Positions 39,789-44,749 of a stretch of 64,000 nt of DNA are shown in pieces. The notes beneath the pieces are model-generated. The model did no database searches and was not told the DNA's origin. It saw nothing but the letters and a program-made list of their open reading frames with translations. This DNA is from Opitutia bacterium ISCC 52 (lineage in GTDB: Bacteria; Verrucomicrobiota; Verrucomicrobiia; Opitutales; UBA2995), in assembly GCA_014529675.2 (NCBI GenBank), contig CP076040.1, positions 1 to 64,000 of the forward strand. Reading direction: 5' to 3'. The first letter of the stretch is position 1, and the number at the start of each line of letters is the position of its first letter. The position numbers and the translations under genes were made by a program.

Positions 39789-39842
39789 ACCTCCAAGATA
39801 AGCGCTGAAGTAATTCCTGAACCACAAACCTACGCTCTGATT
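39789..39842 (+). pseudogene. Relic of a second PEP-CTERM tail
   Basis: Directly after the terminator the reading frame gives EVIPEPQTYALIVGG, the first half of a PEP-CTERM signal, after which a seven-G run disrupts the helix. There is no body upstream. This is a decayed tail of a second, probably tandem, PEP-CTERM gene. Confidence 0.55.
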
Positions 39843-40131
39843 GTGGGGGGGCGTCTGTTTAAGGCTCGTTGTGCTCCGAAAAAAATGGAATGGAAGGCAG
39901 ACGAAACGTACTTCCTAATGGAAGGTCCCTCTGACCATGTATCACAATTAGGGCGAATTGGGCCTTGTTTGTCTCCAAATTCCTCGAATTACATAAAAAT
40001 CCCTCTTGTAGGGATAGGGACAACTCTTAATCTTTCATGGGGATTCACGGTTATACTAGCGGTTAGGTTCTCGATATGGGATAAAATGAGCATCTTATCA
40101 CCGAGTTCTCAGGAACTCACATCCTATCGTC

Positions 40132-40209
40132 ATGAAAAAACTGATTCCTATCATTGTACTTGCGGTTGTACTTGGTTACTCAGCCGCCTATTCGCAGTTA
40201 AGGCCATGA
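40132..40209 (+). pseudogene. Truncated signal-peptide ORF
   Basis: A 25-codon ORF encodes MKKLIPIIVLAVVLGYSAAY SQLRP, a textbook Sec signal peptide with cleavage near AYS, then stops at once. It is likely the 5' end of a lost exported-protein gene. Confidence 0.4.
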
Positions 40210-40374
40210 ATCCAGTTTTTAACTACGTTTCAGATTGTTTTAAATTGCTAACCTTCAGTAGTTAAAAAAAACGATCCTGAAGAAGCTACAACCTCCAGAA
40301 ACAAGCAAAAAAGGTAGGACTCGGCTGATTTTGAAGATTAGGGATACATTTGTAGGATACATTTTGGCGGCCCT

Positions 40375-40393
40375 CAGACCAATTGCTTCTGGA
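40375..40393. repeat. 19-bp direct repeat, left copy (putative att)
   Basis: CAGACCAATTGCTTCTGGA, identical to 42431-42449. It marks the left edge of a possible integrated element. Confidence 0.7.
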
Positions 40394-40473
40394 TTAAAAC
40401 GTAACAATTAAAGCCAGTTAAAATTTATCGATATTTACATGATGAATAAAGGCTTACAGCGATTTTTATTTAA

Positions 40474-40710
40474 ACCACTTTAAGGGAATTTAACCCGTTT
40501 TTAGGGGGGATTTTAGGCACGAGGGTTAAACGCAAGAAGCCAATTGCAGATGCGACCGTCCAGCAAACGCTAGCTGAGCTCGAAATCGACCAAAGCGCCG
40601 CCGAGGACGAGCAGCAGTGTGACCAAACGTCTCCCTTCTGGAACGCTACCCCGCTGGACCGTTGGGCAATCGATGCGAATCGCTGGGATGGCGTCAATCC
40701 CATACCGTAA
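40474..40710 (+). pseudogene. Decayed coding-like stretch
   Basis: An open frame without a start codon encodes a hydrophilic segment (VKRKKPIADATVQQTLAELE..., SPFWNATPLDRWAIDAN, DGVNPIP) followed by a stop and a further in-frame DDEPVFYEE. Composition looks like real protein. I cannot name the family. Confidence 0.35.
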
Positions 40711-40998
40711 GACGACGAACCTGTCTTCTACGAAGAATAACTCGCCGGATCCAAGATCCCAGCGAGACAGCACCGTAGCGGTCGGCCCTAGTCATTCTGC
40801 AGCAATTAGGCAGATACAACAGGGCATTCTCCCGAAATCAACGGCTGCCAGCCATAGAAATCGACCAACGGTACCGATAAAGCCTTGCGGTACTATATAA
40901 TCCACGGAGTTTATAACTTGGTAACGCAAAACCAACTTCTGACCCTCCCCTCCGAATCAAATCGGAACAATTGAATTTCCTATCAACAGAAAGATACA

Positions 40999-41979
40999 AT
41001 GACATACTCAACAACGGGCTATCTCATACTCGCACTGACCCTTGCATTTCTTACTTTAACGCCGACCGAGGCTCAACTCCGGGGACCTGGGCAATCCAGA
41101 TCGAAGATTCCCAACACTGGCCTTCACGCTCTGCTGCTGGGGACCGGCATCCCCATTCCTAATCCGGAACGCGCGAAGGCGGCAACGCTTATCATAGCAG
41201 GTGGCAAAACATTCATGGTGGATACAGGCCCCGGGAGCACCGCACGTCTGACGGAGAACGGCTATCAGACCGTGGATTATGTATTGTATACGCACTTCCA
41301 CCTCGACCACACCGCTGATCTGGACTGGATGATGTTTCGACGTGGAGGGGCTAACCCCGATCAGCCGCAGATAGTTCTGGGACCCAAAGGCACGAAGGAT
41401 GTCGTCAACAAGATCGTTGCATCCGTAGCTATTGATGAGAAGTACCGAATCGACCATCACGGGGAACACTGGTCGGAACAGGCCATGCAATGTGAGGTCC
41501 GGGAGTTTGAACCAGGGGTGATCTTTGATGAAGATGGCCTCAAAATAACGATGTTCAACGTCGACCATGAGCCGATTGTTCCGGCTGTCGGCTATCGCTT
41601 CGATTACGAGGGGAAATCCGTCGTCGTTTCTGGCGATACGAAGAAGTCAGACAGCTTGATCGATGCGGCGCAGGGATGTGACCTGTTGATACACGAAGCC
41701 ATGAACGTTACGATATTGAATCGGACTTTACCTATGCTCATAAGAAACCGTCCACGAACCGGCGCTATGGTGGAAGACATGATGTCGCATCATACACCCA
41801 CCCTGGAGGTCGCTGAAGTGGCCAAGGCGGTGAATGCGAAAAAGCTCGTCCTCACGCACCTCGTTCCTTCGATCAAGCCTCTGGAAGCACAGGAGAATAA
41901 TTTTGTCCGTGGTATGGCCGAAATCTATTCTGGTCCGATTGTAGTCGGGCGCGACAATATGCTCTTCACTGTGGAATGA
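40999..41979 (+). CDS. Exported MBL-fold metallo-hydrolase
   Basis: 326 residues of the beta-lactamase-fold class closest to RNase Z/arylsulfatase-AtsA-like proteins. A signal peptide (cleavage near residue 25, TEA) makes it periplasmic, so not an RNase Z. THFHLDH (98-104) gives the zinc ligands, with GDTKKSD, a DLLIHEAM segment, MSHHT and VLTHLVPS further ligands. The substrate is unknown. It lies within the putative element and its 3' end overlaps the truncated integrase by 14 bases. Confidence 0.88.
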   Translation: MTYSTTGYLILALTLAFLTLTPTEAQLRGPGQSRSKIPNTGLHALLLGTGIPIPNPERAKAATLIIAGGKTFMVDTGPGSTARLTENGYQTVDYVLYTHFHLDHTADLDWMMFRRGGANPDQPQIVLGPKGTKDVVNKIVASVAIDEKYRIDHHGEHWSEQAMQCEVREFEPGVIFDEDGLKITMFNVDHEPIVPAVGYRFDYEGKSVVVSGDTKKSDSLIDAAQGCDLLIHEAMNVTILNRTLPMLIRNRPRTGAMVEDMMSHHTPTLEVAEVAKAVNAKKLVLTHLVPSIKPLEAQENNFVRGMAEIYSGPIVVGRDNMLFTVE

Positions 41980-42340
41980 ACAGTTGTTTCAAGGCAGAGA
42001 GCCTCGCGTATTTTGCTTTCTCTGTTAGTGTGAAATCATCACGCGTTTTCTGTGCGTACTCATCACACAAATCGCCGATGGTTATGGGTCCGCCACTATC
42101 GCCACGGCTCGGCGTAACTGTCTGACGCTGCTTTTCTACGACCAGCATCTTTTCGTTTCGCCGATTTACGGCCACCTTGTAGTTAGTCGTTTTTAAAGGC
42201 GTATGAACCTGCTTACCGCTCAACTTGTAGAGCAGGTAGTATTCGCCGCTATTAAGGTATCTTACTAGGTTTGGGGTTCGGGTCTTAATAAACCTTCTTT
42301 TTGTGCGTTTAACCGTCCTTTTGCTTCGGGTGAAGCACAA
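41966..42340 (-). pseudogene. N-terminal fragment of a tyrosine integrase
   Basis: 124 residues that resemble the arm-binding and SAM-like N-terminal part of tyrosine recombinases: a basic start, LVRYLNSGEYYLLYKLSGKQV, LKTTNYKVAVNRRNE, then TIGDLCDEYAQKTR and a helix ending KAKYARLSALKQL. The catalytic domain (R..HxxR..Y) is absent. The frame ends where it meets the 3' end of the MBL gene, so the gene was cut there. It starts about 65 bases from the tRNA-like sequence, the usual place for an integrase. Confidence 0.6.
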
Positions 42341-42405
42341 CGGTTAAGCAGGTCAAGATACTTATTTCTTTAATCGGATAACTAACTGATTGTTAGTGAC
42401 TTAAA

Positions 42406-42492
42406 TGGTGGGTCGACTGGGACTCGAACCCAGACCAATTGCTTCTGGAGCAACTGGTCCGTGAAAAGCCAAATACGAAAGACTAATCACCC
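42406..42492 (-). pseudogene. Degenerate tRNA-like sequence
   Basis: On the minus strand the 3' half is a good tRNA end: a five-base stem GTTGC/GCAAT with loop TCCAGAA, T arm CTGGG-TTCGAGT-CCCAG, acceptor strand TCGACCC, A and CCA. The 5' half (GGGTGAT, weak D arm, about 12 extra bases) does not pair well, and position 33 is C instead of T. Looks like a tRNA remodelled by integration or decay, not a working tRNA. Confidence 0.55.
42431..42449. repeat. 19-bp direct repeat, right copy (putative att)
   Basis: Identical to 40375-40393 and located inside the anticodon arm to T arm of the tRNA-like sequence, a normal crossover site for tyrosine integrases. Confidence 0.7.
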
Positions 42493-42519
42493 ATCACCTT
42501 GGGGTTGGCCTCGATTTCT

Positions 42520-44040
42520 TCACTGGGACCCTGACCTCTGGGGGTCGGCCAGATTGTCTTCACGGGTGACGCCGCCCTGGGTGTAGAAATCGGGTTTCAT
42601 GGGCATGGCATCCAAGACGGCTTGGAGCTCGTTTCGAACGGACTGCCGCTCCGGATTATCGGGAAGGACGCGTTGTTCGAGGGGGTCGGTGGACAGGTCG
42701 TACAGGCGGCCATTGTCGTAGAGCTTAAATCGTTCGTTGCGGGCGAATCTGGCTCGAGGGAATTTTGGGTTGGCCATGGGGCTGGCGGGGTTCTTGTCCC
42801 AGTGACAGAATACCCAGTCGCGTTTCTCAGTTCTGTATACATCCGACCGATACGACTTTCCGGCGATTTGAGGAAGGAAGCTGCGACCGTCCAGCGATAG
42901 GTGTTGGGGAAGGGGAACACCGCCTGCATGAATGATGGTCATGAGGAAGTCGGTGAAGTCCACCAAGTCGTCGCAGGCTTGACCCGTGACGCCGCTGCCC
43001 CGCCAGCTGGTGATAAGGGGGACGTGGGTTCCAGCGTTGGCAGTGCGGCCTTTGCCGCCGATAATCATTCCATCCTCGGTTTCAGTTCGGGTGCCGAGCT
43101 GGGTTCCATTGTCGCCCGTGAAGAGGATGAGGGTGTTGTCGCGCAGTCCCAGGGCTTCGAGTTGGTCGAGAATGCGTCCGACGAGCTTGTCGGCATATTC
43201 CACCATGTCCTTGAAGTAGACCTTGTTGCTTTTCAGTTTCTGAGCATTGCTCATCTGGTCGATCCCTTCGGAATCCGGGGTCGGGACATTGGGTCCGTGG
43301 GTGAGGATCATCGGGTAGTAGATGAAGAAGGGCTGCGCTTGTTTGCGTTCGATGTAGTCGACCAGAAAATCCGTGCAGATGTCCGGCGCATAATCCACGT
43401 AGCTCGTTTTAACCAGCTTCCCGTTGCGCAGGACGCAGGGGTTCCAGTAGCGCGAGGTCATATGGGGCCGATCGTCCTCGATGGCGTAATAGCGTTCCGA
43501 TGGGCGCTTGGGGTTGTAGTAGTAATTGTTCTTTGCTCCGATGGGATGCTTTAGCTCGAAGCCTTCCAGGTCGAATCCATAGGCCCACATGCAGGTCTCG
43601 TCAAAGCCTGCCTTGGAGGCCGTGACCCCTTCGGTGCTGAGCTGCCATTTCCCGGCGGTGGCGGTGGCGTAGCCGGCCTCCTGCATGATATGCCCGAAGG
43701 TCGTTTCCGATTGGGGCAGGGTACCCCATTTCGTATAGTTCCGGTTGTTGTAGATCCCGGTCATGATCTGAACGCGGGACGGGGAGCAGATCGGCTGAGA
43801 ATAGCAGCGGGTGAAGCGGACCCCTTCCTGGGCCATGCGATCGAGGTTGGGCGTGTTGTAGGATACGCTGCCATTGACCCCGAGGCATTCGAAGCCCATG
43901 TCATCGGTCATGATGAGGATGATGTTCGGCTTGTCCTGAGCTTGTCGAAGCGGTCTTTCTTCGGCCCAACCGGAAAACGAAATCGAGCACACGAGAAAAG
44001 CCGCGAGGCAACGTACTAATGGGGTAGCTTTGGCGAACAT
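42520..44040 (-). CDS. Exported formylglycine-dependent sulfatase
   Basis: Hydrolyses sulfate esters, likely of marine polysaccharides. 506 residues: signal peptide (1-26), metal-binding DD at 46-47 in IILIMTDDMGF, the CSPSR motif (85-89) whose Cys85 must be oxidised to formylglycine by a maturase, then THGPNVP and FTGDNGTQLG. The segment LRQAQDK (31-37) between signal peptide and domain is encoded by a genome-wide short repeat. The gene is clearly GC-richer than its neighbours (36 of 60 bases at 43021-43080, against 31 of 60 in xylB at 49021). Probably acquired. Confidence 0.93.
   Translation of the reverse strand: MFAKATPLVRCLAAFLVCSISFSGWAEERPLRQAQDKPNIILIMTDDMGFECLGVNGSVSYNTPNLDRMAQEGVRFTRCYSQPICSPSRVQIMTGIYNNRNYTKWGTLPQSETTFGHIMQEAGYATATAGKWQLSTEGVTASKAGFDETCMWAYGFDLEGFELKHPIGAKNNYYYNPKRPSERYYAIEDDRPHMTSRYWNPCVLRNGKLVKTSYVDYAPDICTDFLVDYIERKQAQPFFIYYPMILTHGPNVPTPDSEGIDQMSNAQKLKSNKVYFKDMVEYADKLVGRILDQLEALGLRDNTLILFTGDNGTQLGTRTETEDGMIIGGKGRTANAGTHVPLITSWRGSGVTGQACDDLVDFTDFLMTIIHAGGVPLPQHLSLDGRSFLPQIAGKSYRSDVYRTEKRDWVFCHWDKNPASPMANPKFPRARFARNERFKLYDNGRLYDLSTDPLEQRVLPDNPERQSVRNELQAVLDAMPMKPDFYTQGGVTREDNLADPQRSGSQ
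43928..43950. repeat. TTGTCCTGAGCTTGTCGAAG-type short repeat inside the sulfatase gene
   Basis: The core reads CTTGTCCTGAGCTTGTCGAA, a palindromic-type repeat I know as widespread in many bacterial genomes. In this frame it is translated as LRQAQDK. Confidence 0.6.
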
Positions 44041-44092
44041 AAAGCTGATGGTACTTTAACCTCGTGCAATCTGGCAAGGGCGAACGGTGTGA

Positions 44093-44749
44093 AGGCTAAC
44101 TGCTTTGTTTGACGGTCCTCTCACAGGAGGAACATTTGACGGCCAACCCAGAGGGGTTGAATTGTTTGCTGACAGTGATATCGCTGATCTGAGTATATTC
44201 GGATTAGGCGTGTCCAATATAGAGCCAGGTAAAGAAGGCATGGACTTCGCTTTTGATCCCATAAGCGTATCGGCAGGCGAGTTCGTTTATCTCTCCTATG
44301 AATCGACGAACTTTAATAACTTTTTCGGTTTCAACCCCGATATCACCAACAACACGTTGCGGCAGGTCAGGGGCGTGTTTGGAGTAGAGCTCTATAAAAA
44401 TGGATCTGTGATTGATGTGTTTGGTGACATCACAATTCAGGCGGCCAATTCAGACCCGTGGAAATTTGCTGACTCATGGGCTTACCGAGTGGATGAAACT
44501 GGACCTGACGGCACTACTTTCAACGTAGACAATTGGATTCTGCCAGGAAGAAATACTTTGGACGACGAAACGTCGAATGCCACCGCAGAGGATCCTGTCC
44601 CACTTGGAACATTTTCTCCTGGTGAAATTGCTCGAGATCAGACCGGTGGCGTAGGAGTCACACCAGAGCCTTCCACCTACGGCATCATCTTCAGCGTATT
44701 TGCTGTTGGACTCGTCGTATGGCGGAAACGGAATCGCCTAAAGTATTAG
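44093..44749 (+). pseudogene. PEP-CTERM lamin-tail-like protein lacking its 5' end
   Basis: The frame encodes TALFDGPLTGGTFDGQPRG, ELFADSDIADLSIFGLG and DSWAYRVDETGPDGTTF, the pattern of exported lamin-tail-like proteins of this phylum, and ends in PEPSTYGIIFSVFAVGLVVWRKR. Homologous sequence begins directly at a TGA (44090-44092) with no signal peptide and no start codon except an internal TTG at 44105. The 5' end was probably removed when the sulfatase segment arrived. Its 3' end overlaps hppA by four bases. Confidence 0.7.

Follow-up and report, generated by a model that had tools for sequence, protein, structure and literature searches.

The two exact copies of CAGACCAATTGCTTCTGGA at 40375-40393 and 42431-42449 of the 64-kb window (the whole stretch of DNA that was analysed) are very probably the two attachment sites, attL and attR, that bound a small tyrosine-integrase island inserted off-target in the end of a related island. 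The inner unit spans 40394-42430 on the minus strand, is about 2.06 kb long with one 19-mer and sits within the distal end of a second island belonging to the same family. Its left repeat (40375-40393, minus strand; loop TCCAGAA plus arm GCAATTGGTCTG) would be the distal att and its right repeat (42431-42449, minus strand) the tRNA-side att, giving the direct repeats at both ends that are seen in tRNA islands. An earlier note had placed the two copies at these positions, which were reproduced, and had raised the question of whether the 19-mer is a dispersed repeat. No third copy occurs in the window at up to three mismatches (0.01 expected by chance), and the whole single-contig 4.8-Mb genome holds no further copy at up to two mismatches.

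Relatives without the segment, which the note had proposed as a check, exist. In G301, which belongs to another family of the order, the flanks of the inner unit are contiguous and contain the 19-mer once (TCTAGAAGCAATTGGTCTG; L187 3293-3551). Window 42514-42431 corresponds to L187 3293-3376 with 95% identity and window 40393-40200 to L187 3358-3551 with 92%; the two flank matches overlap by exactly 19 bp. The distal island end of G248, a single-contig genome from a different family of the same order, is likewise unoccupied. All empty sites used here come from other species, not from other strains. That the repeats arose by chance in decayed DNA, with the integrase piece and the metallo-β-lactamase (MBL) gene as unrelated neighbours, is a practically negligible prospect. 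Much of the interval is non-coding and rearranged, but the expectation for such a 19-mer is 0.01 per window, the order tRNA half, stub, MBL is the same in G248, and the precise junction at the G301 empty site refutes this reading.

The ends of the inner unit match termini of tRNA-Lys islands in G301 and G248. The distal terminus (40394-40541, minus strand) has its counterpart in the first G301 island, directly beside the tRNA-Lys att: window 40541-40378 matches L187 1506-1668 at 90%, the L187 terminus meets the att as GTTACGTTTTAA joined to CTTTTAAGCAATTGG, and identity at the junction breaks only in the loop, which reads TCCAG in the window and CTTTT in G301. With a left terminus as in G301 and a right end formed by a tRNA half with an integrase stub, sequence comparison identifies 40394-42430 as an island with both native ends. 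Together with the G301 empty site, the matching termini support the proposed integration of a 2-kb mini-element. The 19-mers could instead mark the starts of two homologous tandem island ends, the right copy having arisen by a deletion of ~190 bp that joined the first island's end (AAGCAATTGGTCTG) to the next att (AAGCAATTGGTTCTG), with no 2-kb integration at the 19-mer. Tandem islands are common at tRNA-Lys, and such a deletion would account for the loop TCCAGAA in both copies and for the T missing from the right one. We nevertheless consider it improbable, as 40394-40541 is a native terminus abutting a tRNA-Lys att in G301 and not the interior of an island end, and as the outer flanks are about equally close (95% and 92%) to one contiguous G301 locus.

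The right 19-mer overlaps a tRNA-Lys(UUU) 3′ half of 39 bp, minus strand 42444-42406 (AAGCAATTGGTCTGGGTTCGAGTCCCAGTCGACCCACCA), which matches the tRNA-Lys genes of many relatives. Of 53 genomes searched, 35 gave a match, mostly to this half, and ARAGORN called tRNA-Lys at all 17 of the matched loci to which it was applied. Since 42406-42444 is 97.5% identical to the G248 att, the end of the element carries the 3′ portion of its home tRNA as an att arm. The description of the right copy as lying inside a tRNA-like sequence was therefore right as to the tRNA, but the half belongs to the element and not to a host tRNA. At the right copy the 5′ half is absent and ARAGORN calls no intact tRNA. The genome's own two tRNA-Lys genes are located elsewhere and differ in sequence; its tRNA-Lys(UUU) is intact, and the 30 kb around that gene contain no second att. 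Neither the inner nor the outer insertion site holds a tRNA gene, so the event is classed as a secondary-site insertion of a tRNA-targeting island. Other readings of the tRNA-like sequence were discarded. Rfam returned no family match, and a forced, truncated tRNA-Leu call by ARAGORN at a lowered threshold was dropped because tRNA-Lys 3′ halves match nearly base for base. A tRNA-Gln reading of the plus strand lacks a T-arm and has an A/C mismatch in the stem.

Islands of this kind are found at tRNA-Lys in both relatives. Behind an intact tRNA-Lys of G248 (L163 2769-2844) lies an island stack of 26 kb, and a 45-bp att (CTTTTAAGC...CCACCA) has three exact copies there, at 1850800, 1854350 and 1877117; G301 has four att copies over ~17 kb. 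Small units of 1.9 and 3.5 kb occur within these stacks. Beyond the last att both genomes continue into a common chromosomal region (87% identity over 2.5 kb), so that everything between has been inserted. As part of the best overall explanation, we place the home site of the inner unit with high confidence in the anticodon arm of tRNA-Lys(UUU).

Tyrosine recombinases that target tRNA genes are known to use the 7-bp anticodon loop as overlap and the stem as core sites (PMC8371274). The home reaction would be an exchange across the loop CTTTTAA between the arms CAGTTGC and GCAATTGG, with an attP of the form GTTACGTTTTAA-CTTTTAA-GCAATTGGTTCTGGG... and the element supplying a replacement tRNA 3′ half. 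The window copy would have used an off-target hairpin with the same arms and the loop TCCAGAA, ~190 bp from the end of the related island. The sequence that mimics the anticodon arm CAGTTGC-CTTTTAA-GCAATTGG at the point of insertion is CAGTTGC-TCTAGAA-GCAATTGG. The hairpin at the right copy, GACCAATTGC-TTCTGGA-GCAACTGGTC (42433-42459), has its left arm and loop on the host side and in its unoccupied form is the tRNA-mimic target. The normal tyrosine-integrase geometry suggested earlier does not extend to the host site, which only mimics an anticodon arm (CAGTTGC-7bp-GCAATTGG). Both 19-mers carry the host-type loop TCCAGAA and the right one lacks one T relative to the element's GGTTCTGGG, so a single textbook crossover would not yield them unless mismatch correction or a small later change also took place.

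The integrase is represented by an N-terminal stub of 124 aa (41966-42340, minus strand; homologous residues ~15-121) that adjoins the tRNA-side att and is cut by the 3′ end of the MBL gene; the catalytic part is missing. The check proposed for this fragment, an HMM search of the fragment alone, was negative: it had no match in Pfam or NCBIfam, nothing convincing in PHROGs and no useful match in PDB, phage, plasmid or viral-contig collections. Its identity came only from homology to full-length relatives. The body of the stub aligns to the N-termini of full-length tyrosine integrases adjoining tRNA genes, which bears out its description as an integrase N-terminal fragment, and a sequence-only reading was correct here on a feature missed by profile searches. 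Matches at E 0.01 or better occur in 81 of 384 genomes of the class. A tRNA gene lies beside the match in 27 of 29 loci examined; searches with two full-length relatives led to 16 loci, 15 of them likewise next to a tRNA gene. Nearly all those loci have the integrase divergent from the 5′ end of the tRNA, whereas the window, G248 and G301 have it behind the 3′ end. The relatives come from records named Opitutales, Chthoniobacter and other Verrucomicrobiota. A large Verrucomicrobiota family of tyrosine integrases lies within ~250 bp of tRNA 5′ ends, almost always divergent (L118-L131, L133, L136-L162), and flanks tRNAs for Arg, Met, Ser, Leu, Lys, Thr, Phe, His, Pro and Val.

Five stub copies, in three genomes and at tRNA-Lys and tRNA-Thr (window 41966-42340; L163 6512-6841; L164 5968-6180; L165 5794-6138; L166 5773-5910), are each truncated or broken at a different point. 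Across the genome PF00589 identifies only two genes; their open frames, at 310 and 320 aa, suggest XerC and XerD by size. With a stub and two Xer-sized recombinases, the inner unit could now move only if a matching integrase entered the cell and helped it in trans. No full-length integrase of the stub's type was found in the collections searched, and for this reason we infer the catalyst of both insertions: an intact integrase, either the stub's full-length ancestor, now lost, or a helper.

The MBL gene (40999-41979, plus strand) encodes a putatively exported MBL-fold hydrolase related to RNase Z/GntH. Its ORF has an HxHxDH motif and its N-terminus appears signal-peptide-like by eye, in keeping with the exported MBL-fold hydrolase noted earlier between the copies. 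Intact and conserved, it is probably an expressed cargo gene. The MBL is the only other recognisable gene beside the truncated integrase, which agrees with the view of the unit as a decayed element with one cargo gene.

The MBL segment points to exchange with G248, which has the tRNA-Lys half, the stub and the MBL gene with an identical stub/MBL junction. The right end of the element (tRNA half, integrase, MBL) is 93% identical to G248 1854354-1855906 over 1,557 bp. This average covers two parts, as window 40903 to ~42095, the 1.2 kb with the MBL gene, is ~99.5% identical and the outer part 50-87% per 60-bp block. The MBL gene itself, 99.5% identical, gives dN 0.001 and dS 0.017, and the first 60 aligned integrase codons dN 0.18 and dS 1.13. 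A recombination breakpoint, as read from the alignment, lies inside the stub. The few alignable protein-gene stretches between the two genomes are ~67-71% identical; against this background the ~99.5% identity of the MBL segment indicates recent horizontal exchange between families, which would have taken place by homologous exchange between island copies. As each of the two assemblies consists of a single contig, contamination is unlikely.

A 44-bp repeat (GTTGATAGGAAATTCAATTGTTCCGATTTGATTCGGAGGGGAGG) accompanies cargo genes. It is present in eight copies in 7 kb of the G248 island (L163 2925, 4285, 4349, 5925, 5967, 7823, 8713 and 9532) and also in G004 and G005, which share the genus of the window's source. 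One copy of this cargo-associated repeat lies at 40649-40988 in the window (plus strand; 44-bp core 40945-40988). One end of the repeat is constant and mostly lies close to the start of an ORF (sulfotransferase, nucleotide-sugar transferase-like, MBL); the other varies from about 44 to over 240 bp, and there are tandem truncated copies. A reading as integron gene cassettes (attC) was rejected: the repeat folds weakly (z -1.4 to -1.9), its other end varies in length, and no integron integrase was seen among the ORFs next to the array. A broader view would make the tRNA-Lys islands of the order trans-mobilised satellites that keep the stub for a purpose, for example as att arm DNA or a small regulator, with the 44-bp repeats before cargo genes as a second cassette-exchange site that would feed genes into islands. 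All five stubs seen are truncated or broken, at different points, while the diverged part shows purifying selection (dN 0.18, dS 1.13), but we give this view little credence.

The inner unit had been described as a 2-kb insertion, which holds for that unit, but comparison with the nearest relative gives a full insertion of 3.9 kb. This insert (40205-44091) is flanked by 5-bp AAGGC repeats (left core 40200-40204, right core 44092-44096) and interrupts a PEP-CTERM gene, the 5′ part of which is at 40132-40204 and the 3′ part at 44092-44749 (both plus strand). G005 lacks the whole of 40205-44091 (outer empty site, L060); in that genome the PEP-CTERM gene has its signal-peptide part and its body joined, save for a gap of one base close to the joint and a later stop. 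The distal end of the outer island (40205-40374, minus strand) is 92% identical to G301 (40393-40200) and 87% to G248 (40385-40200), and stops at the same base as the G248 and G301 island ends that abut tRNA-Lys, before GCCTTTTAAGC. GCCTT is the core that these distal ends share, and AGCAGTTnGCCTT occurs once in 105 kb scanned, at the outer left boundary. The older island would itself have integrated at the core GCCTT, in a site within the PEP-CTERM gene that resembles the same anticodon arm; on the minus strand the site reads AGCAGTTAGCCTTAACTGC, similar to AGCAGTTGCCTTTTAAGC.

The outer island DNA at 42450-42514 (minus strand) comprises a Sel1-like gene tail and spacer, 95% identical to G301 L187; an assignment of 42483-42514 to a sulfatase end was rejected, as it is the tail of the Sel1-like gene. 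A chimeric sulfatase in the outer island (42520-44040, minus strand) has the promoter and signal peptide of the Sel1-like gene, followed by the sulfatase body and the Sel1 tail in another frame, and the motif TCCTGAGCTTGTCGAAG is found at its first joint (near 43937). At its right end the outer insert has the promoter/signal-peptide region of a Sel1-like gene; the G301 version of this gene (86%) is located in the same island. As no integrase end is present in the outer island, its right boundary may be a deletion junction. The 5-bp AAGGC repeats, and a right boundary that has no integrase end and is homologous to the inside of a G301 island, would also fit a transposon, or an illegitimate insertion, that duplicated 5 bp of its target. 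Such an origin, in place of an integrase product, is unlikely: the left boundary coincides to the base with the tRNA-Lys island ends, at core GCCTT, the target resembles the tRNA-Lys anticodon arm, and no terminal inverted repeats were seen.

Decayed or cis-mobilizable att-bounded islands, their accretion at tRNA genes and secondary att sites are of a known kind; the insertion record here is unusually complete. CIMEs and tandem ICE/IME-derived accretion (ICESt1 family; PMC5704250) likewise consist of stacked, att-bounded units that have lost integrase function and decayed by deletion. The inner unit is att-bounded without integration and transfer genes, and CIME-like stacking is apparent from the three att copies in G248 and four in G301. 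Unlike the ICESt1 family, the islands use tRNA-Lys in Verrucomicrobiota, the window copy is away from a tRNA in secondary sites, and no conjugation gene was recognised by eye among the island ORFs read. Rare secondary-site integration is known for SGI1 and NBU1 (PMC5704250), which are also integrase-borne islands in alternative att sites; here, however, the site is the end of another island with a hairpin resembling an anticodon stem-loop, and a second off-target event surrounds it. Recombinases of tRNA anticodon loops (SSV1-type and bacterial; PMC8371274) share the 7-bp loop, the stem-arm core and the carried tRNA 3′ half, but here the N-terminal stub alone is left. Most class-level relatives of the stub are on the tRNA 5′ side, whereas the window, G248 and G301 group is on the 3′ side. 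The composite genomic island CGI48 of Shewanella putrefaciens (PMC8978831) is also an island inside an island; the window case is much smaller, decayed and nested through a tRNA mimic. We found no description of such islands in Verrucomicrobiota in the open-access literature, a weak argument that none exists.

The succession of insertions can be followed almost base by base, as a natural record of how a tRNA integrase chose off-target sites: each of the two insertions has a relative's empty site and lies at a mimic of the tRNA-Lys anticodon arm. This makes it possible to test whether target choice depends more on the stem arms than on the loop. Genes have, moreover, recently moved between families of this order, which has been little studied.

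Two further observations concern the surroundings of the insert. A decayed second PEP-CTERM gene (3′ end and downstream region) lies beside the insertion at 39799-40130, and its G005 counterpart is longer. A conserved CACACCGTTCGCCCTTGCCAGATTGnnCGAGGTT is found at window 44055-44091, L166 7734 and 9799 and L108 1501-1537, near the predicted starts of unrelated exported-protein genes, and is perhaps a promoter type of the order.
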